DNA from: Chelativorans sp. ZYF759
Lineage (GTDB): Bacteria > Pseudomonadota > Alphaproteobacteria > Rhizobiales > Rhizobiaceae
Assembly (NCBI RefSeq): GCF_012911015.1
Contig: NZ_WVVV01000006.1
Span: forward strand, 1-64,000
DNA: 64,000 nt
Direction: 5' to 3'
Under the pieces are notes generated by a model that saw nothing but the letters and a program-made list of their open reading frames with translations, searched no databases and had not been told where the DNA came from. The translations under genes were made by a program, and so were the position numbers. Below are positions 9,123-39,795 of this stretch, piece by piece (position 1 is the first letter of the stretch; the number at the start of each line of letters is the position of its first letter).

Positions 9123-9126
9123 GGCC

Positions 9127-11429: not shown

Positions 11430-11633
11430 TTCCCACTTACCCTTCTCTGGAGGCACGCAACGCACATGCGAGCCTTCTCTTTTCGTTGTTTTCAGCCGCC
11501 AACCCTCTCCCTTTCGGCGCACAGCGGGCCGGGCCGGCGAACACCCCGCAGCGCAACAAGCATCGAATTCGATAATGTAACGATGGTCAAGCAAGAAACC
11601 TGATTGACGCCTGATATGTCTATATTTGACGTT

Positions 11634-12500
11634 TCAGCTTTGTCGCGGCGTGAGATACCAGGCGCGTGCATGGCGCAACGCCGGCAACATTCTGCCGGGT
11701 CGCGGCGTGAAGCCGGCCTTGCGCACCGCCAGCCAGCGGGCAAGCCAGAGCGTGTAGAGAAGACCCAGCCCGAAGCCGGCCACGACATCACTCGGATAAT
11801 GGGCCCCCGCCGGCACACGCGACATGGCGATGGCCAGGAACCAGGCGCTCCAGGCCGGCCACCAGCGCGGAAACCAGAGGATGAGGATCATGGCCAGCGC
11901 GCCGCAGGTGGTGGAATGGCCCGAGGGAAAACTCAGATTCGCGTATTGCGTCGAAAAGGGCTGGAACTGGAAGATGCCGCCCTCGTCGAACAGGATCGGC
12001 CGGCCGCGCCCGATGAAAAGCTTGAAGATGTTGGCCACGATGCCGGTGATCGCCACGGCCGCGAAGACGAATCCGGCCTGGGCGAAGACGAAGGCCAGCT
12101 GCGCGCGGATGCGGGGCTCGCGGAGCTTCCAGTTAAGCGCGGCCAGGACGAGCACGACCACGAGGCTCGGCACCAGATACCATTCCGATTTGCCCAGATC
12201 GGTGATGGCGTGCATCACGACATGCAGCATGCCGCGCGTCTGGCGCACGTGATTGATGGCGTAGGCATCGAGAAGGGTCAGCACCGCGGCGACGGCCAGA
12301 AAGGCCACCGCCAGGCGCGTCATGTCGCGGGTCCAGGTGGCCTCCCACGGAAAGAGGCGTGGTCCCCACGGCGCCATTACATAGGCGCGCATGGCGAGCG
12401 CGAAACGCAGCGGTGCTCTCCGCCAGGCGTGGGGCCTCTCCAACTTTCCGTCCGACCAGTCGACCATTGCCGCCCTTCGCCTGCAAGCTTGCCTCTTCAT
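11634..12500 (-). CDS. PAP2-family phosphatase (membrane)
   Basis: A 288-residue integral membrane protein of the type 2 phosphatidic-acid phosphatase superfamily. The three signature motifs are present in order: KLFIGRGRP, then FPSGHST, then SRVPAGAHYPSDV with the catalytic His and Asp. About six hydrophobic helices surround them. Such enzymes dephosphorylate lipid phosphates (undecaprenyl diphosphate, phosphatidic acid or lipid A), usually on the periplasmic face; the substrate here is not readable. The ATG at 12500 or one eleven codons in could be used. Confidence 0.9.
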   Translation of the reverse strand: MKRQACRRRAAMVDWSDGKLERPHAWRRAPLRFALAMRAYVMAPWGPRLFPWEATWTRDMTRLAVAFLAVAAVLTLLDAYAINHVRQTRGMLHVVMHAITDLGKSEWYLVPSLVVVLVLAALNWKLREPRIRAQLAFVFAQAGFVFAAVAITGIVANIFKLFIGRGRPILFDEGGIFQFQPFSTQYANLSFPSGHSTTCGALAMILILWFPRWWPAWSAWFLAIAMSRVPAGAHYPSDVVAGFGLGLLYTLWLARWLAVRKAGFTPRPGRMLPALRHARAWYLTPRQS

Positions 12501-18238: not shown

Positions 18239-18676
18239 TCAGCGCTCCAGCCCGAACAGGGCCAGAAGCCCGAAAATGATCTGCTGGCCGGCGCCGGCAT
18301 CCGGCTGCACCTTTTCCATGGCGATGGAATGCGAGACCACATGGCCGACGCCGGTGCGGTCGAGATGGCGGTGGCTCTCCTTGATGCTGGTGATGGCGAA
18401 CCAGCCGAGCCGCTGCCCGTCGCCCCGGTGCAGGGGAAATCGCGTGCCCTGCCGGCGCATCTGGTGCGCGAATTCCAGCTCGGTCAGCCCGCCCGTCTTG
18501 AAGGGCAGCAGCTGCCCGGTGAGCGTGATGCGGTCGTCGCCCTCGCCCATGAATTCCTTGCCGGGCAGTGTGCCGATCAGCGGTTTGGAGGCGATGTCGG
18601 CGCCGGCCTGGCGCGTCACCTCGTTGACGCTGAAGGGGCGCGTGTCCAGTGTCAGCGTGCCGATCATGTAGAGCAT
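18239..18676 (-). CDS. Tail protein U (P2 gpU-like)
   Basis: A 145-residue protein of the P2 gpU / DUF2313-type tail family, acting near the tail completion or hub region. The segment GWFAITSIKESHRHLDRTGVG is characteristic. The ATG at 18676 overlaps the tape-measure stop as TGATG, so translation is probably coupled. Confidence 0.86.
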   Translation of the reverse strand: MLYMIGTLTLDTRPFSVNEVTRQAGADIASKPLIGTLPGKEFMGEGDDRITLTGQLLPFKTGGLTELEFAHQMRRQGTRFPLHRGDGQRLGWFAITSIKESHRHLDRTGVGHVVSHSIAMEKVQPDAGAGQQIIFGLLALFGLER

Positions 18677-20991
18677 CAGGCGGTCCCCCATTCGCTGTCG
18701 GCCTGGAGGCCGGCGATCTCGGCGCGCAGCTGCCGGTCGACCTCGCGCACGAGATCGCGCGCGATGGCGCGCGGATCGCTCACCCCCTGGATGACGATGT
18801 CGCCGAAGCTGATGGCGATGTCGCGCCCGCCCGCCGATCCCGGCCGGCCGCCCTCGCGTCGCATCATGTCGCGGCTGGCACCTGCATCGTGCACATAGCC
18901 GTCGCTGCCGGCGGTGATGATTTCGGGACCTTCCTCGCCGACCAGATAGGCGCGCCCGCGCGTGATCGGCCCGCCGGCAGCACGCGCGCCGTCCACGGCC
19001 GGACCGCCGCCGCCCAGCCAGGACGGCATGGACGGCCATCGGATGATGCCGGACAGGTCGATCGAGCCGATGGCGGCGATGATGCGGCCGGGGAGTTCGC
19101 GGAACCAGGCCAGCACCTCGTCGAACTTTGCCTTGATCCCGTCCCACATTGCCTGGATCAGGGCCGTGCCGGCCTCGTAGAGCGCGACGCCGCCAGCAGC
19201 CAGCGCGCCGGCGATGCGTCCGGGAAGATCGGCCACATATTGCAGCACCCCGCCCACGGCCTGACCGACGGCGGTGCCCCAGCCGCGCCAGTCTTCCGCG
19301 CTGGCGTCGATCGGCCCGGTCATCTCGCCGAACCAGCCGATCAGGGTCGATACCGAAGACGAGATGCCGTCGATGATGGCGCCCGCGGCCGGGAACGCCT
19401 CGCTTATGCCTTCCGCGATGCCGGCGAACATCTCGCCCAGCCCCTGCCAGTTCTGCCAGATCCAGGCGCCAGCCATGGCGATGCCGACCACAATGGCACC
19501 GATACCGGTCGAGATCAGCGCGACGCGCAGCGCGAGCATCGCCGCGCGCACGAGCCGGATCGGGTTGAGCAGGGCCAGCATGCTGGCGCCCATGGCCGAC
19601 AGGGCCCCGCCATGGCCCGCGATGGCCGCGGCTGCCGTGTAGCCGACCATGGCCGTCCGCGCGCCCCTGAGCGCCGCCGTGAACGGCAGGAAGGCCAGCT
19701 GCGTTGCCCACAACGCACCCTGCAATGTGCGCATGGACAGGATCGCGGCCGAGATCGCCCCGCCCTTCATCCACAGGAAGGCGAATTGTGCCGCCACCAC
19801 GGCCACCCGCAGCGCGACAAGGGCGGAAACCAGCCCGACGATCGTCGCGGTCAGCCGCGGGTTGGCCTCGGCGAAGGCGGCGATCGGCCCCAGGAGCGCG
19901 ATCATCGTGCGGCCCATATCGGTCATGGCCGGCAGGAGAGCGGTGCCGATGGCGATCTGCACACCTTCGACGACCGACCAGAACTCCTTCATCATGCCGT
20001 TGAAGCCGGCCATCTGGACATTGGAGATGCGCTCGGCCGTACCGCCCGAATTGCGCAGCTCCTCGTCGAGCTCGCGCAGCGCGTCGGAGCCCTGCCCGAC
20101 CAGGGCGGCCATGGCGGGGCCGGCACGCTGGCCGAAGAGCTGCATCATCAGGCCTGCGTCCTCGGCATGCGGCTCGAGCTGTTCGATGATATCGGCGAAG
20201 GGCAGGAGACGGCCACGCGCGTCGGTGAACGACAGGCCGGCTTCCTGCATGGCGGAGGCCACGCCGCTGGTCGGGTTGAGAATGCGCGTCAGCGCACCGC
20301 GCAGCGAGGTGCCGGCCATCGACCCCTGGATGCCGGCATTACCCATCAGCGAGATGGCGGCGGCCGTCTCCTCGAAGCGCACGCCGGCCGCCGATGCGAT
20401 CGGGCCGGCATATTTCATGGCCTCGGCAAGCTGTGAGAGATCGGTATTGGCCGAGGTGAAGGCCTTCACCAGCACGTCGTTGACATGCGCCAGCTCGGAG
20501 ACGTCCTTGCCGTAGCCGGTGAGGATGTTGGAAACGACATCCGCCGTCTGCGCCAGGTCCATCTGCGCGGCCGAAGCCAGCTGCAGCGTGCCGGGCATGG
20601 CGCCCAGGATCTCGTTGGCCTTGAAGCCGGCCATGGCGAGAAAGCCCATGGCGTCGCCCGCCTGGCTGGCGGTGAACTGGGTCGAGCGGCCGAGTTCCAA
20701 TGCCTGCTGGCGCAGCTGGTCGAACTGCTCGCCACTGGCCCCCGACAGCGCGGTGACGCGGTTCATCGCGGTTTCGAAATCGGCGGCAGCACGCACCGGC
20801 GCGCCGACCGAGCGCGCCATCGCATAGGCCATGGCCGCCGCGTCGACCATGCGGCCGCGCATTTCGTCCATGCGGGCATTGTTGCGCCGCTGCGCATCCT
20901 GCAGCCGGTCGACCGTGGCGGCGATCCCGCGCGCGGGAGCCGTCACCCTGTCGATCAGCGACACGATGAGCTGGGAAGTCAGCGTGGCCAT
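18676..20991 (-). CDS. Tail tape measure protein (TP901 type)
   Basis: A 771-residue protein that sets tail length and is ejected with the DNA. The N-terminal TP901 core (about 60-330) includes AADFETAMNRVTALSGASG and LGRSTQFTASQAGDAMGFL. Hydrophobic segments lie in the middle and later part (IVGLVSALVALRVAVVAA; IGAIVVGIAMAGAWIW), as expected for membrane penetration. The C-terminus contains EGPEIITAGSDGYVHDAG. The ATG at 20991 is preferred to an upstream frame that runs through a hairpin repeat. Confidence 0.93.
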   Translation of the reverse strand: MATLTSQLIVSLIDRVTAPARGIAATVDRLQDAQRRNNARMDEMRGRMVDAAAMAYAMARSVGAPVRAAADFETAMNRVTALSGASGEQFDQLRQQALELGRSTQFTASQAGDAMGFLAMAGFKANEILGAMPGTLQLASAAQMDLAQTADVVSNILTGYGKDVSELAHVNDVLVKAFTSANTDLSQLAEAMKYAGPIASAAGVRFEETAAAISLMGNAGIQGSMAGTSLRGALTRILNPTSGVASAMQEAGLSFTDARGRLLPFADIIEQLEPHAEDAGLMMQLFGQRAGPAMAALVGQGSDALRELDEELRNSGGTAERISNVQMAGFNGMMKEFWSVVEGVQIAIGTALLPAMTDMGRTMIALLGPIAAFAEANPRLTATIVGLVSALVALRVAVVAAQFAFLWMKGGAISAAILSMRTLQGALWATQLAFLPFTAALRGARTAMVGYTAAAAIAGHGGALSAMGASMLALLNPIRLVRAAMLALRVALISTGIGAIVVGIAMAGAWIWQNWQGLGEMFAGIAEGISEAFPAAGAIIDGISSSVSTLIGWFGEMTGPIDASAEDWRGWGTAVGQAVGGVLQYVADLPGRIAGALAAGGVALYEAGTALIQAMWDGIKAKFDEVLAWFRELPGRIIAAIGSIDLSGIIRWPSMPSWLGGGGPAVDGARAAGGPITRGRAYLVGEEGPEIITAGSDGYVHDAGASRDMMRREGGRPGSAGGRDIAISFGDIVIQGVSDPRAIARDLVREVDRQLRAEIAGLQADSEWGTA

Positions 20992-21029
20992 GGAAGCCTC
21001 AATTTGTGATGAAAGAACCGCCGGAGGCG

Positions 21030-21110
21030 GCAAGCCCGACCGGGCGTCGGGCCGCATGGCCCGCCCGCCGGAGCGCCAGCGGGCAAGGCCCGCGATGCGG
21101 CGCGTGAGGC
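21030..21110 (-). repeat. Multi-hairpin intergenic repeat, copy 1
   Basis: An 81-bp GC-rich element between the frameshifted chaperone and the tape measure gene. On the minus strand it begins CCTCACGCGCCG and contains nested stems GCGGGC-CTT-GCCCGC, GGGCCATGCGGCCC and CCCGACGCCCGGTCGGG. Copy 2 at 55695-55776 is very similar. Diverged relatives at 21661-21747 and 22306-22397 share the layout. Confidence 0.7.
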
Positions 21111-22409: not shown

Positions 22410-23648
22410 CTAAATCCCCCCGAGCCGCGCCACGATCTCGGAGACGAGACCTTCGACGGCCGGACGGTAGCGGCGGATTTCGTGGTCGGCGCGCTTGAAG
22501 GCCGGCGCCGGCTCGATGCCCAGATTGACCGTCAGGTGGCCGAGCCTGATCTGCTCGGGGCTGTTGCGGTCGGCGCGGAACTGGACGTCGTAGCCCAGAA
22601 TGTCGTCGGCCGCCTTGCGGTCGCGCAGCATGAAGCGGATCGAATTCAGCCAGGCCTCGACGATGTCGGCCGTGATGCGACGGCCGAGGAATTCCCGCGT
22701 GATCTGCATCAGCGCGACGGTCAGATAGTCGGCACCGCGCACCTGGTGGATCTGCTTCCACAATTCGCCGGTCTCGGTGTTGTCCGTGCCGATGAAGACG
22801 AAGCCGCCATCGCCCACCGCCCCGTCGACGCCGGTCTCGCCGCGCGCCACGATCGAGACTTCCGCCTCCAGCATCTGCTGGCCTTCGGTGGAGCCGTCGA
22901 GCAGCGAGAAGGGGATCGGCCGCGACAGGCCGGCCAGGCCCTGGATCGGCCGGTTGGCGATCGGGTTGAAGGGCCGCCCGCCATGCATGGCGTCGACGCG
23001 CATGAACAGCCCGACGACGCGCGGCGCCATGGGCCTGGTGACCACCTCCGCGCCCTCGAAGACGCGGGCGGCGACGCCGATCGGCATGAGCCGCTGCGAA
23101 TTCATGGTCTCGCGGGCATCGATCGCCAGCGCCGAAGAACTGTCGTCGACGTCGATCGGCGCGATGGCGAGCAGCCTTTCGCAGGCGGCGGGCAGCGCGG
23201 CGACGACAGGATTGGCGGTCTCCTCGTCGGGGCGCCAGGCGGTGCGCCCGGCGAAGATGAGCCGCGGCGTCATGTTGGCGATGGAGGGGATGGAGCCGAC
23301 GCCCTGCAGCGCCTCGACGATCGCGGCCGACGTGTTGGCCAGCGCCGCCGCGGGATCCTCGTCGTCGTCTTCCGCCACGCGCAGAATGACGACATCCGCC
23401 CCGGCATTGAGCCCGGCGATCTGGCTGTTGATGCCGCGCACGGCATCGGCCAGGTAGCCGGTGCCCAGCGCCTCGACGGCATCGGGATCGGACGTGGAAA
23501 TGCGCACGGGCACGCCGATCGGATAGGCCTCGGCCGAGGCGTCGGGCGAGGTTTCGATCAGAAGAGCCTTTGAAAAATCGGCCCCGAGCACGGGAACCGG
23601 CTCGTCCTCGGGCCGCGTGAAAGTCATGCCGAAAGTCGGTGCCGACAT
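22410..23648 (-). CDS. Tail sheath protein (P2 FI-like)
   Basis: A 412-residue contractile sheath subunit. The N-terminus MSAPTFGMTFTRPEDEPVPV and the C-terminal half (QIHQVRGADYLTVALMQITR, LRDRKAADDILGYDVQFR) match the phage tail sheath superfamily. The ATG at 23648 has a CAGGAGAAA ribosome binding site. It is the first gene after an intrinsic terminator at 23717-23745, so it probably has its own promoter or depends on antitermination. Confidence 0.93.
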   Translation of the reverse strand: MSAPTFGMTFTRPEDEPVPVLGADFSKALLIETSPDASAEAYPIGVPVRISTSDPDAVEALGTGYLADAVRGINSQIAGLNAGADVVILRVAEDDDEDPAAALANTSAAIVEALQGVGSIPSIANMTPRLIFAGRTAWRPDEETANPVVAALPAACERLLAIAPIDVDDSSSALAIDARETMNSQRLMPIGVAARVFEGAEVVTRPMAPRVVGLFMRVDAMHGGRPFNPIANRPIQGLAGLSRPIPFSLLDGSTEGQQMLEAEVSIVARGETGVDGAVGDGGFVFIGTDNTETGELWKQIHQVRGADYLTVALMQITREFLGRRITADIVEAWLNSIRFMLRDRKAADDILGYDVQFRADRNSPEQIRLGHLTVNLGIEPAPAFKRADHEIRRYRPAVEGLVSEIVARLGGI

Positions 23649-23716
23649 CGGGTTTCTCCTGGTGTGTTGTGAAGGGGCCTTGCCCAAGGGCCATTCGGGC
23701 TCCGGCATGACGCCGA

Positions 23717-23768: not shown

Positions 23769-24248
23769 CTACAGCGCGCTGGCGGCCATCCACATGTCAT
23801 CGATCTGTTCGGGCGAGAGCCCGAGCGCGGCGCCGATCGTCTCGATCAGCGGATGGGTGCGCTGGTAGACGGTCGCATCCTCCCATTCGATCCTGGCCGT
23901 TTCCTTCGCGTTGCCTTCCGGCATGACGTCGATCTCGGCCGTGACCTGTGTCGAGGTGATGCCGGCGGCGAGCAGGCCGAGCCGCAGCTGGCGACGCGAG
24001 AGTTCGGGCATGGCCGCGCGCAGTTCCTCGGCAGTGGGCGGGACGTAGGGGGCGACAGGCCTGCCCTCGGCAATCCACAGATCGAGGCCGGCGCGGATCT
24101 GCGGCGCGAGGCCGAAACCGTCATCCGGCCGCGAGGCATAGTCGGCGACGTAGCGCTGGCCTTCCATGTCGGTAAGATCGGCGGCCACGATATATACGCC
24201 CGGCTCTTCGGTCTCACGGACCGCGGTGATCTCGTGCAGCTGCATCAT
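23769..24248 (-). CDS. Tail-fibre-associated protein
   Basis: A 159-residue protein directly downstream of a tail fibre gene, with which it shares a 4-base ATGA overlap. It contains PPTAEELRAAMPELSRRQLR and THPLIETIGAALGLSPEQI, a pattern seen next to fibre genes in rhizobial prophages, where it is thought to act in fibre assembly. No catalytic motif is visible. The chaperone role is an inference from position. Confidence 0.65.
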   Translation of the reverse strand: MMQLHEITAVRETEEPGVYIVAADLTDMEGQRYVADYASRPDDGFGLAPQIRAGLDLWIAEGRPVAPYVPPTAEELRAAMPELSRRQLRLGLLAAGITSTQVTAEIDVMPEGNAKETARIEWEDATVYQRTHPLIETIGAALGLSPEQIDDMWMAASAL

Positions 24249-25282
24249 GCCATCCTCTGGAAGAGCGACCCATTGAGGCTGCCGTCACGGCCCCGAGCAC
24301 GGAAGGTGCCGCTGAGTGCCGCGCCGCCGCCACCGATGGTGTAGCGGTGTGGCGAACTGGTATCGAGCCGGATAGTCGCGCTGTCGTTACGATCGACCGC
24401 TGCACCGTGAAGGACCATCACCGGATGCCCGAGCGGGAAGTTCGTCGCATTAGTGCCCGACCCGGTGAACAGCCCGACCTCCGGCTTGGTCTCCAGAGAA
24501 TCGATGGCCTGTGCGATGCGCTGTGCCGTCCAGGCGCGGACCGTAGCGGCGGTGCCGGAGCGCGCTTCACCTTCCGTGACCAGCGCCATGTTGCCGCTGT
24601 GCCAGAAGGTGCGGATCGCGTTGTTGAACCGCGCGATGAGCCCGGCCGTGGTCATCCACAGATCGCCGTTTACAGACTCGCCCGGCGCCGTGCCGTGCGG
24701 CATGCGCAACGGCGCGGCGTCCTCGGTACCGGCCGGCAGACGCAGCGGCCCGGTCATGGTGCCGCCCGCCTTGTCGAGCTTCGTATCGAGTGCGGCAGTC
24801 ACATCGGCCGCCGGAGCCTTGGTGGCCAGTTCGTCAGCCACAGCATCGAGTGCAGTCGCGACGCCTGTCGCAGATGCCGCCCCGATCGCCGTGCGCGCCT
24901 CGGCCTGGTCGGCCGCCGCCATGAAGCTCTTGATCGTGGCCGAGGTCGAGAAGTTCGCCGGATTGAGATAGAAGCTCGCCGGCTGGCTGTTGAGCAGCAC
25001 CGAGTTCGGCGCGACGCCCTCGACGATGATCGCGATATTGTCGAAGGCGGTCTGGATCGCCTGCTGCAACTCGCCGAGTTCGGGCGCGATATTGACCTGT
25101 ATGAGATCGAGCGCGGCCTGCGTGCCCTGCGCGATCAGGTTCTCGAACGTGCCTTCCAGCTCTTCGCGCTCGACCAGGCGGGCATGGATGGAGCCGAAGA
25201 CCGCGTTGAAGAGGTCCGGCGACATCTCATACCGGGAGTCGACCGTGTAGCCGTTCTCAGGCGATGGCGTCGGCAGTGTCAA
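24245..25282 (-). CDS. Tail fibre protein, locus 1
   Basis: A 345-residue fibre. The N-terminal part is helical. A middle region rich in Ala/Thr includes DKLDKAGGTMTGPLRLPAG-type fibre repeats (LDKAGGTMTGPL). The C-terminal part (DGSLNGSLFQRMA) is probably the receptor-binding tip. The start is a TTG at 25282 with GGGGAGA seven bases before it. It overlaps a 59-residue gene upstream by 26 bases. A second, larger fibre gene lies at 30414-32444, and the two are separated by a cargo cassette. Confidence 0.8.
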   Translation of the reverse strand: MTLPTPSPENGYTVDSRYEMSPDLFNAVFGSIHARLVEREELEGTFENLIAQGTQAALDLIQVNIAPELGELQQAIQTAFDNIAIIVEGVAPNSVLLNSQPASFYLNPANFSTSATIKSFMAAADQAEARTAIGAASATGVATALDAVADELATKAPAADVTAALDTKLDKAGGTMTGPLRLPAGTEDAAPLRMPHGTAPGESVNGDLWMTTAGLIARFNNAIRTFWHSGNMALVTEGEARSGTAATVRAWTAQRIAQAIDSLETKPEVGLFTGSGTNATNFPLGHPVMVLHGAAVDRNDSATIRLDTSSPHRYTIGGGGAALSGTFRARGRDGSLNGSLFQRMA

Positions 25283-25592: not shown

Positions 25593-25697
25593 ATCCGGGT
25601 TAGGCGGGCGCATGGCAGGCGCCTTGCCAGGGGTGGAACGGTCGGCTAGGGGGGCAGGGCGGCTAAAATCCGTGAGCCCTTAGGAGAGTACCCACCG

Positions 25698-26744
25698 ATG
25701 GAAGAATGGATTGCGTCGGCTATCAGAGCCGCGAAAGAAATGGAGGCACATTCCCCCCTCGAAAAAGGCGGCGCCAACGCTGACTTCGTTAAGCAAAGCT
25801 ACGAAAACCATTGGGGTGGAAGGGTTGAGAGTATCCGTGAAAAGATAGCCGGCGGCGAAACAATCGCTCACATCCTCGCCGGTATTCGCAGCCAGCCCCA
25901 CCTCCTGAGAAACAATCAGGGCACCGACGCGATCACCAAGAACGCGCTGCCCGACTTCAACGAAACTACGTCGGATGGCAATCCGACGTCACGTCTCGGA
26001 GTATGCAACAGCCGGTTCGTCGCGCAGCCAAACTTCGACCCGATGACCGCCATCTACCGACATGCCTTGGATGCGGACACGATAGTTGAACTCGGCGCGG
26101 GGCCGGGGTGGAACCTGTTCAACCTCTCGACCTTTTTGGGCAAGGCCGTGCACGGAAAGCGCCTGTTTGGTCTCGAGTACTCTGATGCCGGGCTGGAAAT
26201 CATCAAGCTTCTTGCCGAGCATGAAAGCCTGCCAATCGAAGCGCACTTCTTCGATTACAGAAACCCCGACCTGTCCGTGCTCCCCCCTACAGGGCGCATG
26301 TTGATCTTTTCGCATCACTCGATGGAGCAGGTTGAGGAAATATCTCCCTTGCTTCACCAAACGATAGCGGCCCGAAAAGAGCCAACGAAACTTATCCACT
26401 GCGAGCCTATCGGATGGCAGCGCTTCCCTGATCTATACAAGGCGCGCGTCCGTGAGAACGACAACCTCTTAAAGGCGATGGTCGTTCGGCGCTTCGATGA
26501 CCTGCATGCACCCCATGCGGTCGCGATGTCCGCCGCCATCAACTCTTGGCGCGTCAAATATAACAGAAACGCTATGAATTGCATCAACAAGCAGGTGAAC
26601 GCCAAGCGGTTCATAGTGCGAGAAGCAATCTATGACTTCACCCACATCTACAACTCCAATCCCGTTAATCCTTCGACATATTTGGAGATTGATGTCCTTC
26701 CGCCACGCGATCAACCAAAGGAAGAAAGCGCGGAACAGGAGTGA
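25698..26744 (+). CDS. SAM-dependent methyltransferase-like protein (cargo)
   Basis: A 348-residue protein with a class I SAM-binding motif, VELGAGPGWNLFNLS (about 131-145), followed by an acidic strand end (GLEYSD) and FDYRNPD. The central part fits the Rossmann methyltransferase fold; about 125 N-terminal residues and a long C-terminus are not recognised. It is read rightward inside a leftward late operon and is visibly richer in A+T than the phage genes around it, which points to recent acquisition. The ribosome binding site TAGGAGAG precedes the ATG. It is followed by a glycosyltransferase in the same direction, so methylation of a glycan is a reasonable guess. Confidence 0.7.
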   Translation: MEEWIASAIRAAKEMEAHSPLEKGGANADFVKQSYENHWGGRVESIREKIAGGETIAHILAGIRSQPHLLRNNQGTDAITKNALPDFNETTSDGNPTSRLGVCNSRFVAQPNFDPMTAIYRHALDADTIVELGAGPGWNLFNLSTFLGKAVHGKRLFGLEYSDAGLEIIKLLAEHESLPIEAHFFDYRNPDLSVLPPTGRMLIFSHHSMEQVEEISPLLHQTIAARKEPTKLIHCEPIGWQRFPDLYKARVRENDNLLKAMVVRRFDDLHAPHAVAMSAAINSWRVKYNRNAMNCINKQVNAKRFIVREAIYDFTHIYNSNPVNPSTYLEIDVLPPRDQPKEESAEQE

Positions 26745-26799
26745 CTTGTCTACCGGCATGCGCTAAGCGGTGCCGCTCTTCAGTAAATATGGTGAGGCG

Positions 26800-28938
26800 A
26801 TGCGCACGATTATCAGGAAAATCGTTCCCTACAGTGTGAGGCAAGCCCTGTGGAGGCTGAGAAACAACAAGCAGTTGTTTGCCGGCGAACCCGTCGTGCG
26901 ACTGAAGTCTACTCGCTCCGCGCCAGACAATCTGCCGGTTAAGGCGCCGAAGCCTGTCACCCCCGTCGCGAACCGACCAAGAGCCTTTTCCAATCTTATT
27001 CGCACCATGTCGATCAAGCAGTTGGACGATGCGACCGTGAAGGGCGTCTCGGATTTGGCCTCGGATGCTCTCGTTATTTGGGCCTCGTTGGAATACAGGC
27101 GTGGCAATTTGCGCCTTGCTACCGACCTCGCCGCCATGATCCCGCCCAACGCAGATGTCGATCCTAGCCATCTGCGAGCTTGCTGGGACATCCTGCGCGA
27201 TATCGGCCGCTTTGACCTGGCAATTAGAGGATTCGAGACCAGAGCATCGGATATCGCTCAAAGCCCAAGTCTTCGCTCCCGGCGCGCACTTACCCTTTTT
27301 GCAGCCAAGGGGTACGAGTTCCTGTCGCGATACGTCGACCGGCACAGCCAATCCACACCTAAAGGTTATGTCGTTCTTTTCGACCTCAACCACCGCATCA
27401 CATCTGGGCTCATGGTCCCCATCGGCATGGAGTTGTTCCGACAAGGGTATGATGTTTCCTCGGTCATCCCGTCAACTATGCCGATCTCCCGGCGTCCCGA
27501 GCTACACGGCATTTCTGGTGCGATCAGGACCAACGGGTCATCTCTTTCGGACGAGCCGTGGACGTCCGATCGGCTCCACAATCACTGGGTTGTCGATTGG
27601 GACCATGAAATGGTGTCCTGCGACGGGGTGAATTACTACACGTTTTTCTCAGAGCGCATCAGCAAATTGCAAGGCGTATATCGCGGCAAACTGGACACTG
27701 CCAAAGCCGTCAACCTGTTCCACTCCATGCTCCATCGAAGCGACCTTGCACTGGTCATATGCAAGCGGTTGGTGACCCTCGCTGAGACGACCGGAAAGCC
27801 AGTTCGAGTAGTCGCGATGGATACTCACTTCGCTCCCCAGGGCGTCGTGCGCCGCTGGTGCGAACAAATAGGGAAGCGATACAACATCCATATGGTGGGG
27901 TTATCCGTCGCATACGAAAACTACTTCTCCAATCTTTCAACTCTGGAGGCCCGCACCGTGGCCGTTGAGGACATGACGGCCCGACCAGATGTTAGACATC
28001 CCCTACTTGCCGGGCGGTACCGCCTTGACCAGTACCTGGCGAGCGACCCGGAAGCCGTCACAAGGCGAGACCTGGTTCTGGGGATGATTAACATGAACCG
28101 AAGCGGGACCAGCGATTCAGACGAATCCGAGCGCCAGAGGGTTCTTCAGGCGATCAGTGCCGCCAAGGAAGATGGGCGAAAGGTGTTTTGCGCCTTCGGA
28201 AAGGTTCTCATCGATTTCGCGGCCCCCGACGACCGGGGGAATGTTTTCAAGGATTTCCCCACTTGGGCAAGGGCCTTGGTGGACATGGCCGCGAAATCGA
28301 ACTCGCTGCTGATTATCAAGCCCCACCCCCACGAATTGCGTAGTGAGATCGTTCAGGACGGGTGTCAGAAACTTCGAGATCTGCTGCCCGAGGTCCTGCC
28401 CGATAACGTCATTTTCCTGGGCCACTCCTCGTTTAATTCGTCGGAGCTTGCCGACCACGTTGATGGCTGCTTTCTTTGGAACGGAACGGCATATGCTGAA
28501 TATCAGGTGCTGGGCTGCCCTGCTTTTGCGGAGAGCATCTGGGCGGAAAAGGACTACCCTATAGACGCTCCTGTGCTGCGGACGCTGGACGACTACACAA
28601 GAGTGTTCAGAGGAGTTTCCCCGCGAGAAATCCCGGTCCATACGGTTGAACGCGCCATCGCCTACATGCAATTTATGAAGTCGGGGTTCGTTACAATCCC
28701 ATTCCATTACTTCCGACGGCCAGCGACCAACAAGCCCATCGGCCCCAACATCTTCTACGAAGACCAGATCCTTGACTTGGACCAGAATGGCGACCCACAT
28801 GTAACCAAGGCCGCCAGCCGGTTCTTTGAATTTGACAAGGGCGCCGAGCCCGTTGCTTACTTGCCCGCCCCTCTCAAGATGGAAGGCCCGAAACATGAAC
28901 CACCGAAACGTCGCCGTACTCGTAAGACCCGTCAATGA
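26800..28938 (+). CDS. GT-B type capsule/surface glycosyltransferase-like protein (cargo)
   Basis: A 712-residue protein. About 180 N-terminal residues contain a helical repeat-like region. The rest resembles capsular polysaccharide glycosyltransferases of the KpsC/KpsS or CDP-glycerol transferase kind: LLIIKPHPHELRSE carries the characteristic PHP-like His, and LWNGTAYAEYQVLGCPAF looks like the nucleotide-sugar-binding end of the second Rossmann domain. The C-terminal tail is very basic (PKRRRTRKTRQ). The ATG at 26800 has GGTGAGG before it; a GTG at 26770 is in frame. Second gene of the rightward cassette. It probably modifies host surface glycans. Confidence 0.65.
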   Translation: MRTIIRKIVPYSVRQALWRLRNNKQLFAGEPVVRLKSTRSAPDNLPVKAPKPVTPVANRPRAFSNLIRTMSIKQLDDATVKGVSDLASDALVIWASLEYRRGNLRLATDLAAMIPPNADVDPSHLRACWDILRDIGRFDLAIRGFETRASDIAQSPSLRSRRALTLFAAKGYEFLSRYVDRHSQSTPKGYVVLFDLNHRITSGLMVPIGMELFRQGYDVSSVIPSTMPISRRPELHGISGAIRTNGSSLSDEPWTSDRLHNHWVVDWDHEMVSCDGVNYYTFFSERISKLQGVYRGKLDTAKAVNLFHSMLHRSDLALVICKRLVTLAETTGKPVRVVAMDTHFAPQGVVRRWCEQIGKRYNIHMVGLSVAYENYFSNLSTLEARTVAVEDMTARPDVRHPLLAGRYRLDQYLASDPEAVTRRDLVLGMINMNRSGTSDSDESERQRVLQAISAAKEDGRKVFCAFGKVLIDFAAPDDRGNVFKDFPTWARALVDMAAKSNSLLIIKPHPHELRSEIVQDGCQKLRDLLPEVLPDNVIFLGHSSFNSSELADHVDGCFLWNGTAYAEYQVLGCPAFAESIWAEKDYPIDAPVLRTLDDYTRVFRGVSPREIPVHTVERAIAYMQFMKSGFVTIPFHYFRRPATNKPIGPNIFYEDQILDLDQNGDPHVTKAASRFFEFDKGAEPVAYLPAPLKMEGPKHEPPKRRRTRKTRQ

Positions 28939-29056
28939 CAACGATGGGATCAAGGCCCTGGAGATGGAGGAGCATATCCGTGCGTGCGAGGGCTCGGCCA
29001 ACCGCGTTTGCAGGGAACTGTACCACCATGACGATGATGGCCCGTGGGAGGAATAG
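28895..29056 (+). CDS. Small protein at the end of the cargo cassette
   Basis: A 53-residue acidic protein (NDNDGIKALEMEEHIRACEG, ending DDDGPWEE) starting 44 bases before the glycosyltransferase stop, with GGAAGG upstream. No family recognised. It ends three bases before the convergent P-loop gene. Confidence 0.45.
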   Translation: MNHRNVAVLVRPVNDNDGIKALEMEEHIRACEGSANRVCRELYHHDDDGPWEE

Positions 29057-29059
29057 TAG

Positions 29060-29254
29060 CTAGCTGGAGCTTTCGTCCTGCCCGGCGCTGGTCTCCAACA
29101 GCCGATCAAGCGGGCTCATCACGATCAGATCGTCCTCGCCGGGAAGCGTCTCCACTTCAAACCCTTCGGCGCGAAGCATCATGAGCAGCCTGTTTGTCAT
29201 GAGCGTTTTCCCGCTCCCCGGCTCACCCTGCACAATGATTGAAAGGTTGTTCAT
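29060..29254 (-). CDS. 64-residue P-loop miniprotein
   Basis: A complete Walker A motif, GEPGSGKT (10-17), follows a beta strand (LSIIVQ). A helix (LMTNRLLMMLRAEG) and a second strand (EVETLP) come next, then an acidic tail. This is the first third of a P-loop NTPase with no visible Walker B or sensor residues. Such short P-loop proteins occur in other tailed phages with unknown role. It overlaps the Asp-box gene upstream by one base (TGATG), so it belongs to the fibre operon. Confidence 0.65.
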   Translation of the reverse strand: MNNLSIIVQGEPGSGKTLMTNRLLMMLRAEGFEVETLPGEDDLIVMSPLDRLLETSAGQDESSS

Positions 29255-30417
29255 CAGCCTGTGATCCTTCCAAGGTTGACCCCCACCAGATAGATGCCCG
29301 GCTCGACACCATAGTCACCATTCGTCGCGCCGGGCGCGAGATAGCAAGCACCCATTGCGTAACTGCCAACGACGAGGGTCAACATCAACTGCCCTACGTC
29401 CGTCGACCAACCGGCTCCGATCTGCGCGAAGTTCGGCCAGGTTACGCCGTGATCTGTCGAGCGATGCGCACCGACGCCTGTCAGTTTTGTCCCGCTCGCC
29501 AGTCGTCCCGCTGCATCGAGGCCAGAGCGGTTGGGTTGCCGCAAACCAAGGGGAAGAGCCAAATCGTCGTTTGGCAGCCTATGTAGCTCGGGCTGCGTAC
29601 CGCGTGGCGTGATGAGAGCTGGCGCGGGGAACGGTCCTACGCCGCCCGTCTTCCGGGTTTGATACAGAGGTCGATTAGCCCCCGTCTCCTCGCGCATAAC
29701 ACAGACATGATCGCCATTGCCCGCGATGACATAGCCAGCTTCACCGAAAGCAAGCGCAGGATTGGACCCGATGATTTCCTTGAATGTGAAGTCCCAGCCG
29801 CCATTGCTGCTTACAAACGCGGCCGTAACGAACGGTGTCGGGCTGACGCGGTAGCCGGTGATGATGATGTCGCTGCCATCCTGCACCGGACGGCCCGCCC
29901 ATATCGCATAGGTCCCGTTGTCACCCCCCGCCGTGGTGACGGCAATGGTGGACTGGATTTTTGTCTCGTAGACGCCTGGGGAAAGGCATCGAGCACGGAA
30001 GATGTTCTTGCCGCCGAACACCTCGCCGGGTTCCAGGATGTCATCCAGAAAGCTCAAGGTTTGAAACCCGGCGCTGTTCTCGAAATAGACCCCCTGCTGA
30101 ATGTCGATGACCTGCACATCATCGGGGTCGGAAAAATCGACATACACCTTCACCCATCTTTGCCGCTGGGATTGGGCGTGCCCGATGCCGCTCGAAAAGA
30201 TGAACAGAAGGATTGCGGTTGTGCTGGAGGTGACCTTCTTGTGGATCGCACTCGGAAAGGCATTGTATTCGTTCCGCTCCAGCCGGATCGCCCTCATCCC
30301 GAGCTGCATCCACCGCTGATATTCGGGATTGTCGAGGGACTTCGGGACAGTTGAAATCCTCCCATCGACATCCATCAGGATCGTGTTTGCGTCCGAAGAG
30401 ATCGCTGAAATGCTCAT
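29254..30417 (-). CDS. Asp-box (BNR-like) tail-associated protein
   Basis: A 387-residue protein in the fibre operon. Two sialidase-type Asp-boxes are visible: SNGGWDF (about 204-210) and STDHGVTW (about 320-327). They suggest a beta-propeller or similar glycan-binding fold. Residues 59-83 (HKKVTSSTTAILLFIFSSGI then GHAQS) look like an internal secretion signal, odd in a virion protein. The ATG at 30417 makes an ATGA overlap with fibre 2. No sialidase Arg triad or catalytic set could be confirmed, so receptor binding is as likely as glycan cleavage. Confidence 0.6.
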   Translation of the reverse strand: MSISAISSDANTILMDVDGRISTVPKSLDNPEYQRWMQLGMRAIRLERNEYNAFPSAIHKKVTSSTTAILLFIFSSGIGHAQSQRQRWVKVYVDFSDPDDVQVIDIQQGVYFENSAGFQTLSFLDDILEPGEVFGGKNIFRARCLSPGVYETKIQSTIAVTTAGGDNGTYAIWAGRPVQDGSDIIITGYRVSPTPFVTAAFVSSNGGWDFTFKEIIGSNPALAFGEAGYVIAGNGDHVCVMREETGANRPLYQTRKTGGVGPFPAPALITPRGTQPELHRLPNDDLALPLGLRQPNRSGLDAAGRLASGTKLTGVGAHRSTDHGVTWPNFAQIGAGWSTDVGQLMLTLVVGSYAMGACYLAPGATNGDYGVEPGIYLVGVNLGRITG

Positions 30418-32444
30418 GGGTGGCACGTCGCAAGAATGTGAGCAAAGTAAAGCGTTCGATCAATCGCAGCGGCATTATTTGCTATGATGCACCCCTTTCG
30501 TCCAGGATGCGTCACAGCGGCTGCAATGTCGGCAGCGGGGGAAGCTTGCGCCATCTGGCCTGAAGCACCGGTTTGCGGGCTATAGACGGTCACCGTGGGC
30601 GTGGCTTCCATATCCCATTCGGGAGTAAACGATACGGCTGTTGCAACCCCAGTTCCGTTGGCGGTAAAGCGCTTCGAGCCGCTGTAGTTGACAGGCGTGC
30701 CTGGCGCTATGTCGTCATCGTAGGTCTTCCAGATGATGGAGCGCATCCGCATCTTGCTGTAGATCGGATCGCCTGGAATATAAGGGCTGACAACAGCGCC
30801 AATCTCCAACTGCACTTCTTCGATCTCGGACCAGTCATTGGCACCAGCCGTCCCCGCTGGAACGTGCTGGAAGCGAGCCGCGTTCTGCGTCATGTCGGAC
30901 GGATATGTTCCCGAAAGGGTAAATGTCTGCCATGACGTGGAAGGCGTGAGGGCTGCTGAAGTAACGGCGTTGTCACCAACCGAGTAGTTCCCGTTGGTCA
31001 ACGCAATGACTTGGCGCGTTAGCGCGTTGGTAGATTTCTCGCCGATAAACAGCGCCCCCGAGAAGTCAGCGCCGGTGCGGTACCGAAACGTGCGGCTGAA
31101 AGGCTTACCCGCCAGTGCAACAGCATCGTAGCGTTCCAACGGAAGAACCAAGTTGATCGCGTTGGTGCTCGTGTCGCCCGGTGTGCGGTGCACACGGAGA
31201 GCGAAATTATTGCCTCTGGACCCCTGCTGCCGGGTTACGGTGACACCGGTCGCACCGCTGGTTCGGGCGATGGTCGCTCCAGCGGCAGCAATGATCCGAG
31301 CCGCCGTGCCAGTGATAGTCGCGCCCATCGGCCAGTGTTCGAAGGCTCCCTGCCAGCAGAAGTTCCGCGTATCCCGCTCGCCTTGTGGGCCTTGTGGGCC
31401 TTGTGGGCCAGGATCGCCCTTGTCGCCCACCACTGTCGTCCACAATCCATCGCTCCAGCGGCGCATGGCATCGTCCGCTTCCCGGACATAGAGAGCGCCT
31501 TCGATTGGTGATCCACCAGCAAAGGCCGTCGCGGCGGCGTCGTCTACAAAAGCGCCAAGATAGCGAGTGCGAAATTCTTCCACCCACTCTCTCGCCGATA
31601 GCGAGCCAAGGCCGTCAGGGTTGATGCCAGTGGCCCAGGCTTTGGATTGATCTTTGTGCTCCCCGCTCTCCTGCGCGTATTCGCGGCTGGATTTCGATCC
31701 CGGCCCATCGGGCTCGGTGCCGTCGGCAAACGCCTGTGAGCGCTCGACAGCACTTGAGAGATCGGCCAGGTCGCCAAGCCAGTCTTCCAGCGTGCCTTCA
31801 TAGCCCTCGTCGACCGCGAGTTCATAGGCGCTCTTGCCGGTATCGCCCTGATCGCCTTTCTCTCCCTGGGGACCCTGAATAGGACCGACATTGACGAATT
31901 CCTCGTCTGTCGCATTCCAGACCCACAGATCACCGTCGATCACATAGCCGTCGCCGATATCGCCACTGGCCGGCAGTTCGCTGACATTGGCCAGCGTGCC
32001 GAGAATGTTGACCGAACTGCCGTCGTCGCCCTTCGGGCCGATATCACCCTGGTCACCCTTGGGGCCTGGCTCGCCCTGATCGCCCTTATCCCCTTTGTCG
32101 CCTTTCGGGCCGACTTCACCGGTATCACCGACCTCGCCCTTGAGATCGACGAAATCACCCCACTCCCCGCCGCCCAGACGGAAGCGCACCGCGGTGCCCT
32201 GCCACTCGTGTTCGAACCCGTCTGCAATCTGCGCAAGCTGCTGGAGCCAGGCCTCGATCGTTTCGGCGATACCGAACACCTCGGCGCGAGCCTGCAGCAC
32301 GGCCGGCAGGCTCTCCAGCACCGACAACGGGTCGTTGTCGACATAACCGCGATAGGCGTCGAAGCGGGCGTTGATCGCCTTCAGCAGCGCCTCACCGATC
32401 TTGACAGCGGCCTGAGCCTTGATCTGGTCGGTATGCAGGTTCAT
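30414..32444 (-). CDS. Collagen-like tail fibre protein, locus 2
   Basis: A 676-residue fibre. An alpha-helical N-terminus (about 1-100) should attach to the baseplate. Gly-X-Y collagen-like blocks follow at about 103-142, 188-204 and 340-360 (such as GDKGDKGDQGEPGPKGDQG) and form trimeric rods. SREYAQESGEHKDQSKAWA repeats are typical of phage fibres. The C-terminal 300 residues (starting CWQGAFEHWPMGATI) look like a jelly-roll carbohydrate-binding tip. The neighbouring large baseplate gene is 10 bases upstream. Confidence 0.85.
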   Translation of the reverse strand: MNLHTDQIKAQAAVKIGEALLKAINARFDAYRGYVDNDPLSVLESLPAVLQARAEVFGIAETIEAWLQQLAQIADGFEHEWQGTAVRFRLGGGEWGDFVDLKGEVGDTGEVGPKGDKGDKGDQGEPGPKGDQGDIGPKGDDGSSVNILGTLANVSELPASGDIGDGYVIDGDLWVWNATDEEFVNVGPIQGPQGEKGDQGDTGKSAYELAVDEGYEGTLEDWLGDLADLSSAVERSQAFADGTEPDGPGSKSSREYAQESGEHKDQSKAWATGINPDGLGSLSAREWVEEFRTRYLGAFVDDAAATAFAGGSPIEGALYVREADDAMRRWSDGLWTTVVGDKGDPGPQGPQGPQGERDTRNFCWQGAFEHWPMGATITGTAARIIAAAGATIARTSGATGVTVTRQQGSRGNNFALRVHRTPGDTSTNAINLVLPLERYDAVALAGKPFSRTFRYRTGADFSGALFIGEKSTNALTRQVIALTNGNYSVGDNAVTSAALTPSTSWQTFTLSGTYPSDMTQNAARFQHVPAGTAGANDWSEIEEVQLEIGAVVSPYIPGDPIYSKMRMRSIIWKTYDDDIAPGTPVNYSGSKRFTANGTGVATAVSFTPEWDMEATPTVTVYSPQTGASGQMAQASPAADIAAAVTHPGRKGCIIANNAAAIDRTLYFAHILATCHP
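31381..31409 (+). repeat. Tandem 9-bp repeat in the fibre gene
   Basis: Three copies of CCTTGTGGG on the plus strand encode PQG triplets of the third collagen-like block on the minus strand. Such runs can expand or shrink by slippage and so alter fibre length. Confidence 0.7.
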
Positions 32445-34737: not shown

Positions 34738-35373
34738 CTAGAGCCGCGGCCGGTCGATGAACTGGCCGAAGTGAATGGAACCGTCGAGCGGCAGGCGATC
34801 GCCGAAGCGAGCGCGCCGACGCCACGCGAAATTGACGCTGGTGAGCGTTTCGGGAGCCTTCGCCACGCTGGCTGCGATCTGTGCGCGGCGCAGCGGTTCG
34901 AGGCTGATGCTCGTCATGGCCGACAGCCCAAGCACGGCCCGGCCGATCCGAAACGGATTGACGGGCTGGGCAAGCGGAACCTTGACCAGATAGTGCGCCG
35001 TCATCGGCCGGTGGTTGATCGGCCTGACACCGATCGCCGATCGACCGATGACGAAGCGCGCGGGGTGCGCGATCAGCCAGGTGATCTCGGCGTCGACATA
35101 GGCGAGGAAGCGCCTTGCGCCCTCTCTTGTCCCCTTGAGCGCCGCCAGCTGGACAGCCTCGGCGACCATCTGGCGCTTGCGCTCCTCCGGCCAGTCGTCG
35201 AACCAGAGATCGACGCTCTCATGGGCTGCCAGGAACGGCAGGAATGCAGCCGGCGTGGTCGCCGGATCGAGGATATCGCGCAGCGGCACCGGCAGGATGT
35301 CGGTCAGCGCCTTCGCGACAGCCCTCTCGAATGCCGTCGCGTTGGACGGCAGGATCTTCGCCGCGTCGGTCAC
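34738..35373 (-). CDS. Baseplate protein I (P2 gpI-like)
   Basis: A 211-residue member of the phage tail protein I family: ILPSNATAFERAVAKALTDI at the N-terminus and LPFLAAHESVDLWFDDW are diagnostic. It shares a 4-base overlap with gpJ. In P2 it forms part of the baseplate wedge. Confidence 0.9.
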   Translation of the reverse strand: MTDAAKILPSNATAFERAVAKALTDILPVPLRDILDPATTPAAFLPFLAAHESVDLWFDDWPEERKRQMVAEAVQLAALKGTREGARRFLAYVDAEITWLIAHPARFVIGRSAIGVRPINHRPMTAHYLVKVPLAQPVNPFRIGRAVLGLSAMTSISLEPLRRAQIAASVAKAPETLTSVNFAWRRRARFGDRLPLDGSIHFGQFIDRPRL

Positions 35374-36290
35374 GACGCCACCTCGACCGTGATGTCGATC
35401 AAGGTCAGCACCGGAACCGTGTAGGGGTGCGCCACGATATCGGCGACCGGCTCATGATGCTGGACGTCGATCACGCTCGGCCCGAAGGATGCGCCTGCCA
35501 GAAGATCGCGCGGCACGCCGGCGCCGATCTTCATGCGGCTGTCGGCGATCAGGCGAACCCGGTCTTCCGCTTCCTTGCGCACGATCTCGGCATCGGGCCC
35601 GACCGGCACGAGGATGGTCTGGACGACCTGGAATTCGTGGCGCGTGGCCGGCAGAACCGACACGCCGACAGCTTCCGGCTTCACGTCGGGCGCCTGAACC
35701 GCGGCCTGCACGACCGCAAGTTCGGCCTGTGTCGCCGCCACACCGTTCTCGCCGATGATGACCACGTCCGTGTCGCCGATCCGCCCATGGACGGCGCGCC
35801 CGTTGACGCGCACATCGTGCAGCTTCGGCGCCGACGTCCACGCCTCATAGAGGTATCGCGAGGCGGAACCGGCCGAAGGACGATCGAACGACAGGAGGTA
35901 ACGCCGCAGCAGCTGGGCATCGCCTTCCATGACCGCGGGCTCGTTGCCCGATGCCGGAACCAGCTCGAGGCGAAGAACGCCCTGCCGCGAGGCGATCTGA
36001 TCCAGGTCCGACCCGCGTGCCATAGGCGCCAGCACGGACCGCACGGCGTCGTTGACACGCGCCCGGTCGAGCAGCCGAAGATAGGACCAGGCCTGCCCGA
36101 CGATCGCGACCGGGTCGGTCTCCAGCCCGCCGACCTCATAGGGCGGCAGGTCGGGATTGTCCGCACGCGCTTCGTCCCATGCCGCCTGGAAGCGGTCGCG
36201 GAAAGCCGCGAACAGCGTCTCGAAGTCGAGGGCCTCGATCGCGGCCGGGAAAGGCAGGCGCGACAGGTCGATCGTGGTCGGCGCGCTCAT
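35370..36290 (-). CDS. Baseplate assembly protein J (P2 gpJ-like)
   Basis: A 306-residue baseplate wedge protein. Conserved segments are IDLSRLPFPAAIEALDFETL near the start and RGSDLDQIASRQGVLRLELV (about residue 95), followed by RRYLLSFDRPSAGSASRYLY. It overlaps gp25/gpW and gpI by four bases on each side, so the three wedge genes are translationally linked. Confidence 0.92.
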   Translation of the reverse strand: MSAPTTIDLSRLPFPAAIEALDFETLFAAFRDRFQAAWDEARADNPDLPPYEVGGLETDPVAIVGQAWSYLRLLDRARVNDAVRSVLAPMARGSDLDQIASRQGVLRLELVPASGNEPAVMEGDAQLLRRYLLSFDRPSAGSASRYLYEAWTSAPKLHDVRVNGRAVHGRIGDTDVVIIGENGVAATQAELAVVQAAVQAPDVKPEAVGVSVLPATRHEFQVVQTILVPVGPDAEIVRKEAEDRVRLIADSRMKIGAGVPRDLLAGASFGPSVIDVQHHEPVADIVAHPYTVPVLTLIDITVEVAS

Positions 36291-38766: not shown

Positions 38767-39795
38767 CTACTGCGCCCGTGCGCGAAGCAGCATCTCGGGG
38801 CGGGTGCAGATGAACAGCGGATAGCTGTACATCTCGACGCGGTCCCATTCGTCGCGCCCCGACTTGTCCTCGAGCACCAGCCCGTAGTACTCGCGCCCCT
38901 TCTTGTTGACGTAGGGCTTGAACTCGCTGGCAGGTGCCCAGCCGACCTTGAAGGCGCCGCGCGCGCCAATGGGGAAGAACCGCGCCTTGGCCGTGTCGAT
39001 CGCGATGGTGCTTCCGTCGTCGGTTCCGCGATAGTTGATGAAGGTGATGCCCTCGATCTCGATCGCGGAGAACCCCTCGATGTTCTCGAGCATCGCTGCA
39101 CGCTCGGTGCCAAGCTTCGTTTCCTTGATCTGCGGATGATTGACCAGCAGATCGAAGAAGGTGTCGCCGACCAGAGCGCCGATGCGTGTGGAGGGTGACC
39201 AGACACCCTTCGCCGCCTTCTGCATCGCACGCTTGACGTCACGACACTTCTTGCGAACGTCCGTGGCGGCATCGTTGAGTGCGAAGTTGATCTCGGTCGG
39301 CTCGGCGATGCCCCACTCGTCATACCAGTCGAAGAGAACCGTCGTTCCGTCCGCATCGAGAACGCGGCCCTGGACGGCGCCGAAACGCTGATATTCCCAG
39401 GTCAGCTCCATGTCGTCGAGGATGTTGGCGGTTCGCTCCGTAACTTCCTCGGCGATCTCCTTGGTCTGTTCGTCGAACGGAAGAGAGAGAACACCGGCGA
39501 GTTCGATCGCGTAGATCGTGGAGCCCTTGGCAAGCCGGACGGCGTCGAACTTCCGGACCTTTGCTCCGCGAGGAATGAGTTCCTCGGGGGGCGCGCCGGT
39601 TTCCGAGGTCGGGATGAGCATCAGCGTGCCCTCCCTGCTCGCGACCGCGATCGTACGCGAGCGCGAATAGATCGGTTCAAACAGACCGAGCGATCCCAGA
39701 AGCTGGGGCTTGAAGTCGATGCGCTCCACGATTTCCTCGTGGAATTCGATCGCGCCCCAGGCGTTCTGGTTGAAGATATCGGTTACGATGGCCAT
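38767..39795 (-). CDS. Major capsid protein (lambda gpE-like)
   Basis: A 342-residue HK97-fold capsid subunit of the lambda gpE family. The N-terminus (FEPIYSRSRTIAVASREGTL) and C-terminus (VEMYSYPLFICTRPEMLLRA) are characteristic. It follows the decoration protein gene, as in lambda. Confidence 0.94.
   Translation of the reverse strand: MAIVTDIFNQNAWGAIEFHEEIVERIDFKPQLLGSLGLFEPIYSRSRTIAVASREGTLMLIPTSETGAPPEELIPRGAKVRKFDAVRLAKGSTIYAIELAGVLSLPFDEQTKEIAEEVTERTANILDDMELTWEYQRFGAVQGRVLDADGTTVLFDWYDEWGIAEPTEINFALNDAATDVRKKCRDVKRAMQKAAKGVWSPSTRIGALVGDTFFDLLVNHPQIKETKLGTERAAMLENIEGFSAIEIEGITFINYRGTDDGSTIAIDTAKARFFPIGARGAFKVGWAPASEFKPYVNKKGREYYGLVLEDKSGRDEWDRVEMYSYPLFICTRPEMLLRARAQ

Follow-up and report, generated by a model that had tools for sequence, protein, structure and literature searches.

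We analyzed a two-gene cassette carried by a prophage of Chelativorans sp. ZYF759 (Rhizobiaceae), within a stretch of 64,000 nt that is referred to here as the window (contig NZ_WVVV01000006.1, positions 1 to 64,000). The cassette comprises a putative methyltransferase gene (MT; 25698-26744, + strand, 348 aa) and a putative glycosyltransferase gene (GT; 26770-28938, + strand, 722 aa from a GTG codon). It is a case of probable surface-glycan conversion by a prophage, through a glycosyltransferase of an unmodelled family that is tied to pseudaminic acid (Pse) by genomic context, paired with a methyltransferase and placed among receptor-binding genes. In the reading that we favor, and consider somewhat likelier to hold than to fail, the pair forms a lysogenic-conversion module in which GT adds a pseudaminic-acid-type sugar to, and MT methylates, a host glycan bound by the neighboring tail fibers. 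The original prediction had described two rightward genes of bacterial surface-polysaccharide type running against the surrounding late operon, next to receptor-binding proteins, and had read them as a host-range or seroconversion module. The observation itself is confirmed: both open reading frames (ORFs) are open and intact, 25 nt apart, and are embedded in a stretch of phage late genes that read leftward. The interpretation is partly supported; the presence of surface-polysaccharide enzymes beside receptor-binding genes stands and can be sharpened to a pseudaminic-acid and capsule context. We regard MT and GT as real genes and not chance frames, because both have diverged homologues elsewhere (the nearest relatives are 53% identical for GT and 49% for MT).

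GT had no match in the Pfam, PHROGs, NCBIfam or PADLOC libraries. None of its 38 aligned relatives matched a Pfam glycosyltransferase family, and none matched PF05159 (Capsule_synth, KpsC/KpsS) at E 0.1; the Pfam model TPR_12 (tetratricopeptide repeat, TPR) was matched by two of the 38. PDB sequence searches with the family alignments A1, A2 and A3 gave no glycosyltransferase or methyltransferase relative (in the A3 search, hemagglutinin rows were treated as chance and TPR rows were seen), and a BFVD fold search with GT returned nothing at E 0.001. The AlphaFold2 model of GT, built from 38 sequences, had a predicted local distance difference test score (pLDDT) of 82.1, with values above 90 for the greater part of the catalytic region, and a predicted template modeling score (pTM) of 0.80; its N-terminal part is helical and TPR-like. 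When the top 1000 Foldseek PDB chains were aligned with VIA-align, KpsC ranked first (6mgd; Z 13.1, root-mean-square deviation [rmsd] 4.4, 266 residues aligned, model positions 199-677), and a second KpsC structure (8fuw) gave Z 13.1 and rmsd 4.6 over 271 aligned residues; the alignment with KpsC covers both Rossmann domains, as in a GT-B fold. Structure prediction had been proposed as a check of the original prediction, and it gave a modelled GT-B fold closest to KpsC for GT and a modelled class I methyltransferase for MT.

Sequence profiles and conserved residues point in the same direction. An hhalign comparison of the GT family with KpsS (A6) gave a probability of 86% and E 5e-6 over 129 columns, pairing D482 with an Asp and K517, H519 and P520 with Lys, His and Pro residues that are all invariant in the eight of eight KpsS rows. 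Within the GT family, D482, K517, P518, H519, P520 (KPHP) and E577 are the same in every one of the 38 relatives, and D482 and the KPHP motif are candidate catalytic residues of the C-terminal domain. A YE motif lies upstream, with Y382 present in all 38 relatives and E383 as Glu in 28. KrkA (GT140) is described as using the Glu of a YE motif as base and an Asp 91 residues further on as nucleophile, and KpsS1 (GT118) is described as a retaining pseudaminic-acid transferase that also has a YE motif (PMC12887879). The E383-D482 spacing in the window GT is 99 residues, and by analogy the YE motif and the Asp spacing suggest the same chemistry. GT is a predicted GT-B enzyme with a KpsC-like fold, from a family without a model in the four libraries named above.

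The link to pseudaminic acid comes from the genomic surroundings of GT relatives. A single scan of an 84,980-species genome collection with the GT alignment yielded 37 loci, of which 26 have PseB and/or PseI ≤10 kb from the GT relative; among these 26, two pairs are non-independent (L069 and L071 are on one contig, and L072 and L073 belong to one metagenome-assembled genome, MAG). Of the 11 unlinked loci, L037-L039 and L043 are phage-type and L040-L042 are related to them; the other four are L046, L049, L051 and L053. L046, L049 and L053 are contigs shorter than 9 kb, and G262, the MAG of L049 and L051, has a PseB homologue on another contig. PseB was over the family cut-off in all six genomes tested in which GT is not linked to Pse genes (>10 kb), namely the host and the genomes of L037, L038, L041, L042 and L043, as compared with 11 of 150 genomes of the order, host included. 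The binomial chance of six out of six at that rate is 1.6e-7, a rough figure because the order is an unsuitable background for two of the six, which are actinobacterial MAGs, because carriers share the gene by descent, and because the genomes of L046 and L053 were outside the test. Those two MAGs (L041 and L042, Nocardioidaceae) have GT relatives of 38-41% identity and PseB elsewhere, which may reflect a jump into Actinomycetota or misbinned contigs. A class-wide GT search of 385 genomes added matches at E 1e-8 in nine other genomes, eight of them weak and partial and one strong (G598; 24% identity), with a PseB homologue (51%) ~8 kb away.

Capsule-type features occur in the same neighborhoods. 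The GT relatives of L047, L048, L050 and L070 are fused to an N-terminal KpsC-type domain, in or near Pse loci, and the domain of L048 matches PDB 6mgb at 3.4e-36; some bacterial GT loci also have KpsM/KpsT-like genes. No flagellin-like ORF was found by motif check in the bacterial Pse loci with GT. In the host itself, contig C58 has consecutive homologues of PseB, PseC, PseF, PseGH and PseI, with pseI at 18278-19411, and no GT relative. Beside this operon lies a gene for a 1017-aa protein (L083, 10491-13544), 47% identical to one beside a Devosia Pse operon; HP and SSV-like motifs were seen by eye and Pfam gave just a GT-D-like stretch, and it may be the host's own CMP-sugar transferase. Sinorhizobium fredii NGR234 is described as building a pseudaminic-acid K-antigen with the Pse pathway (PMC7591256). 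Because GT relatives adjoin Pse genes and in part capsule-transport genes, and given the NGR234 precedent, the most likely donor is the host's CMP-pseudaminic acid (CMP-Pse; CMP, cytidine monophosphate) and the most likely product an altered surface polysaccharide. The receptor of phage 16-3 is a Sinorhizobium K-antigen, a point not used as evidence here; our literature search on this phage found nothing.

Relatives of GT recur in phage-type loci. In a maximum-likelihood tree of 41 GT domains, from which the duplicates L030, L031, L032, L035 and L036 and the fragments L072 and L073 were left out (alignment A3 omits these seven rows, L064, and the second copies, on the minus strand, of L056 and L057), the window GT forms a supported clade (99/98) with L037, L038, L029 and L039. 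Phage genes accompany each of these relatives: the viral contig L029 has PHROG fiber genes opposite in strand to GT, L039, which corresponds to viral contig L030, has fiber and tape-measure genes, L038 has a fiber gene convergent with GT, and L037, cut by a contig edge, has an endolysin gene. A further phage contig, L005, falls on another branch, sister to Microbulbifer, and has an endolysin gene and, next to its GT relative, a homologue (49%) of the 390-aa gene to the right of the window cassette. That homologue came from local BLAST; a viral-contig scan with the 390-aa neighbor recovered the window's own prophage alone. L005 also brings together an MT homologue, an acyltransferase of the AT3-SGNH type and a GT relative, and over 1-12280 its glycan genes (TPR plus TylF-type methyltransferase, MT, AT3-SGNH acyltransferase, GT) are interleaved with endolysin. 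L043 (Aliihoeflea), part of which is provirus L031 in IMG/VR, has an opposite-strand fiber gene; its phage status was counted as unclear because of KpsM/KpsT-like genes and a PseB ~17 kb from GT. The nearest identified fiber or lysis gene is opposite in strand to GT in six of the eight other loci (L005, L029, L030/L039, L037, L038 and L043) and on the same strand in L033 and L034. Placing the label "phage" on the tree takes four changes, at least three of them forced by supported branches, in a tree that cannot separate gains from losses. At least two phage lineages beyond the window clade carry the family. As a separate observation, L038 (6600-8502) has, directly before GT, an ATPase-like gene with PHROG matches and then a small gene with low G+C at third codon positions (GC3), possibly a defense pair.

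The partner gene MT likewise had no match in Pfam, PHROG, NCBIfam or PADLOC. It has the motif VELGAGPGWN, and its fold, modelled from five sequences with moderate confidence (pLDDT 66.9), resembles that of class I S-adenosylmethionine (SAM)-dependent methyltransferases. A nucleic-acid role was considered, with METTL6, MnmM and others near-tied at Z 14-16, and was set aside because the fold does not decide the matter and the link to GT and Pse loci does. MT matches occur in 3 of 297 genomes of the order, and the same three also have a GT match, which is present in six of the 297. In the class-wide sample of 385, five other genomes gave remoter MT matches with no GT match listed. In G262, an MT homologue is close to a PseB-to-PseI operon. 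The original prediction held that it would be refuted if such pairs were found mainly in chromosomal polysaccharide loci with no phage association, and this is half the case: an MT homologue directly follows the GT relative in three bacterial Pse loci (L048, L070 and L071). On the phage side, MT and GT are separated by a single gene in L005, and the nearest relatives of GT adjoin phage fiber or lysis genes. The substrate of MT is probably a sugar, methylated at oxygen.

We infer the donor, the acceptor, the methylated position, expression in the lysogen and the effect on adsorption. The cassette would be a module of host origin for glycan modification that a temperate, contractile-tailed phage carries as cargo. 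GT would draw on an activated nonulosonic acid, most probably CMP-pseudaminic acid from the host's own Pse operon, and transfer the sugar onto a glycan of the host surface, for which a capsule or K-antigen-type polysaccharide is the likeliest candidate, and MT would O-methylate that sugar or an adjacent one. The lysogen glycan recognized by the neighboring fibers would thereby be altered, a lysogenic conversion leading to exclusion of related phages. The orientation of the cassette against the late genes fits transcription in the lysogen.

Parts of this scheme have counterparts in known systems. In Acinetobacter, phage-encoded O-acetyltransferases are described as modifying capsule nonulosonic acids (PMC6586298), and capsule-changing prophage genes are proposed to serve the prophage's own defense (PMC13228068); prophage acetyltransferases are discussed in the same sense in a Klebsiella study (PMC13123978). 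Among the closest likenesses, by these descriptions, is conversion in A. baumannii, where the Atr29/Atr30 O-acetyltransferases and prophage Wzy polymerases change the capsule, including pseudaminic and legionaminic acid (PMC6586298; PMC13228068). In contrast, the present cassette pairs a glycosyltransferase and a methyltransferase instead of an acetyltransferase or polymerase, belongs to another bacterial class, lies among fiber genes and is known from its genes alone. The Kdo (3-deoxy-D-manno-oct-2-ulosonic acid) transferases KpsC (GT107), KpsS and WbbB (GT99) and KrkA (GT140) resemble GT in its predicted GT-B fold, which is closest to KpsC, and KpsS also in a profile match over the C-terminal domain that aligns D482 and K-x-H-P. 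Unlike these, the window family is without PF05159 (38 of 38), is linked to pseudaminic-acid genes and has the helical N-terminal part. KpsS1 (GT118) shares the proposed donor and the YE motif, by its published description (PMC12887879), but the Glu of that motif is Gln in 10 of the 38 window-family relatives. Among the open-licence titles and abstracts listed, none reported a phage-borne pseudaminic-acid transferase beside fibers. A known anti-phage defense system was rejected as an identity for the cassette, since MT, GT and a small ORF overlapping the end of GT match 0 PADLOC families at E 0.01.

A broader proposal is that GT belongs to an undescribed pseudaminic-acid transferase family that has entered temperate phages on three or more occasions and that travels with receptor-binding genes as an exchangeable block. 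We advance this tentatively and think it somewhat less likely to be true than false. If true, the fiber by which a phage binds a Pse-type glycan would arrive together with enzymes that block or relabel this glycan in the lysogen (GT and MT, in some cases with an acyltransferase), and such cassettes would be confined to hosts making CMP-pseudaminic acid. A phage cargo tied to a donor sugar that some hosts only can make leads to the prediction that, in a host lacking the Pse pathway, the cassette would have no effect. The unmodelled family linked to pseudaminic acid occurs in Alphaproteobacteria, Gammaproteobacteria and two actinobacterial MAGs, and receptor-binding genes paired with matching receptor-modifying genes would help in reading host range from prophage sequence.

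Several observations weigh against lysogenic conversion by a pseudaminic-acid transferase. No tblastn match to MT or GT was obtained among 50,697 records of isolated phages (E 0.01). The lead of KpsC in VIA-align is just 0.9 Z over the next match, UDP-GlcNAc 2-epimerase (Z 12.2, rmsd 9.8); Foldseek placed SPINDLY and OGT chains first, an order to which the helical N-terminal part may contribute, with KpsC 6mgb in eighth place (probability 1.00); and hhalign found no match between the GT family and a two-row alignment of the KpsC-type domain (A7; probability 0.1%). To these may be added the replacement of E383 by Gln noted above, the lack of a PF05159 (KpsC/KpsS) match in the host genome, and the lack of matches to Pse, capsule or GT query proteins in the two MT-only loci examined (L117 and L118). 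No promoter-like site was found near the cassette (0, where shuffles gave a mean of 1.9). Finally, L033 and L034 form a separate branch with a fiber-GT-endolysin order on one strand, an arrangement that would suit late expression.

The order in L033 and L034 also bears on the main rival explanation, in which the two enzymes act in the producing cell on tail proteins of the phage itself (for example the collagen-repeat fiber or the 390-aa neighbor), glycosylating them with host CMP-Pse and so changing receptor binding or shielding the virion. We consider this unlikely, yet it is the alternative that survives best: GT repeatedly adjoins fiber genes, its family has a TPR-like helical part with OGT-like Foldseek matches, and pseudaminic acid is described as modifying a protein, flagellin, in Caulobacter through FlmG (PMC7591256), a modular enzyme that the window family, with its TPR-like part, resembles by that description. 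The bacterial relatives, however, lie in Pse loci that yielded no flagellin-like ORF by motif check, a difference from FlmG; some of these loci include KpsM/KpsT-like genes, and four relatives are KpsC-type fusions. Moreover, GT runs against the window's late genes, and against the nearest fiber or lysis gene in six of the eight other phage-type loci.

Under a second alternative, the conversion model otherwise stands and the donor is another CMP-linked sugar, such as legionaminic acid, Kdo or sialic acid. Kdo transferases belong to the same fold group, NeuB-type synthases serve several nonulosonic acids, and seven loci (L047, L056, L057, L060, L063, L070 and L072) have PseI-like but no PseB-like genes; PseB, the Pse-specific step, was nevertheless over the cut-off in each of the six tested genomes, and we hold a different donor to be rather improbable. 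Less probable still is that the cassette is chance cargo, a passing chromosomal piece of a polysaccharide locus that at present does nothing for the phage: although the promoter scan came back empty and the pair resembles the chromosomal order in L048, L070 and L071, both ORFs have stayed intact despite their divergence and the GT family recurs beside fiber or lysis genes in several phage lineages.

PHROG tail, head, baseplate and repressor genes flank the cassette on both sides, and by its gene content the element is a contractile-tailed temperate prophage. To the left lie the tape measure gene (18676-21057), the tail sheath gene (22410-23708, - strand; PHROG tail sheath 2.7e-40) and a tail-fiber-like gene (24245-25282, - strand; PHROG tail protein 6.4e-10). 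The right side begins with a gene for a 64-aa P-loop protein (29060-29254, - strand), a 390-aa tail-region gene without Pfam or PHROG match that may encode a receptor-binding protein (29254-30426, - strand), and a collagen-repeat tail fiber gene (30414-32444, - strand; Pfam Collagen 8.4e-11, PHROG tail fiber 2.1e-30); the baseplate (35370-36290) and major capsid (38767-39795) genes follow, with primase genes and a repressor further right. Tape measure, baseplate and capsid are PHROG context genes, and the cassette is opposite in orientation to the late genes (sheath, tape measure, baseplate and capsid). The earlier placement between two tail-fiber loci therefore holds for the loci at 24245-25282 and 30414-32444 but not for the nearest genes on the right (29060-29254 and 29254-30426), which have no PHROG fiber match. 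P2-type phages have accessory genes between their fiber and sheath genes.

The cassette had also been called richer in A+T, and this is borne out: G+C is 52-61% in 500-base windows over 25.5-31.25 kb, as compared with ~65-72% to the left of the block. The low-GC block extends beyond the cassette into most of the two larger right-hand tail genes, which share a GC3 of 0.67-0.69 with MT and GT, vs. 0.89 in the sheath gene. No repeats resembling recombination sites were found around the cassette; the repeats seen were collagen-repeat codons, one 20-nt family and one palindrome. The host genome contains one match to each enzyme (E 0.01). An AGGAG at 25682-25686 (+ strand), read from the sequence, is the likely ribosome-binding site of MT, and a by-eye comparison with relatives makes the ATG at 26800 a more likely start of GT than the GTG at 26770. 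The span first assigned to the cassette ran to 29056, beyond the end of GT at 28938; the remainder is a doubtful third ORF (28826-29056, + strand; 76 aa from a TTG or 53 aa from an internal ATG at 28895) that overlaps the end of GT, has no family match in Pfam, PHROG, NCBIfam or PADLOC, and has its open frame as sole basis.

The product of the 390-aa gene gave a profile match to PDB 5hx0, an uncharacterized protein, at 7.1e-9. The 64-aa product of 29060-29254 has a Walker-A P-loop with weak nSTAND3, AAA and STAND matches, including weak P-loop matches in PADLOC (best 2.2e-4), and resembles the first part alone of an NTPase. Elsewhere in the window, a 766-aa gene at 52237-54537 (- strand) matches phage DNA methyltransferases (PHROG 9.2e-99).

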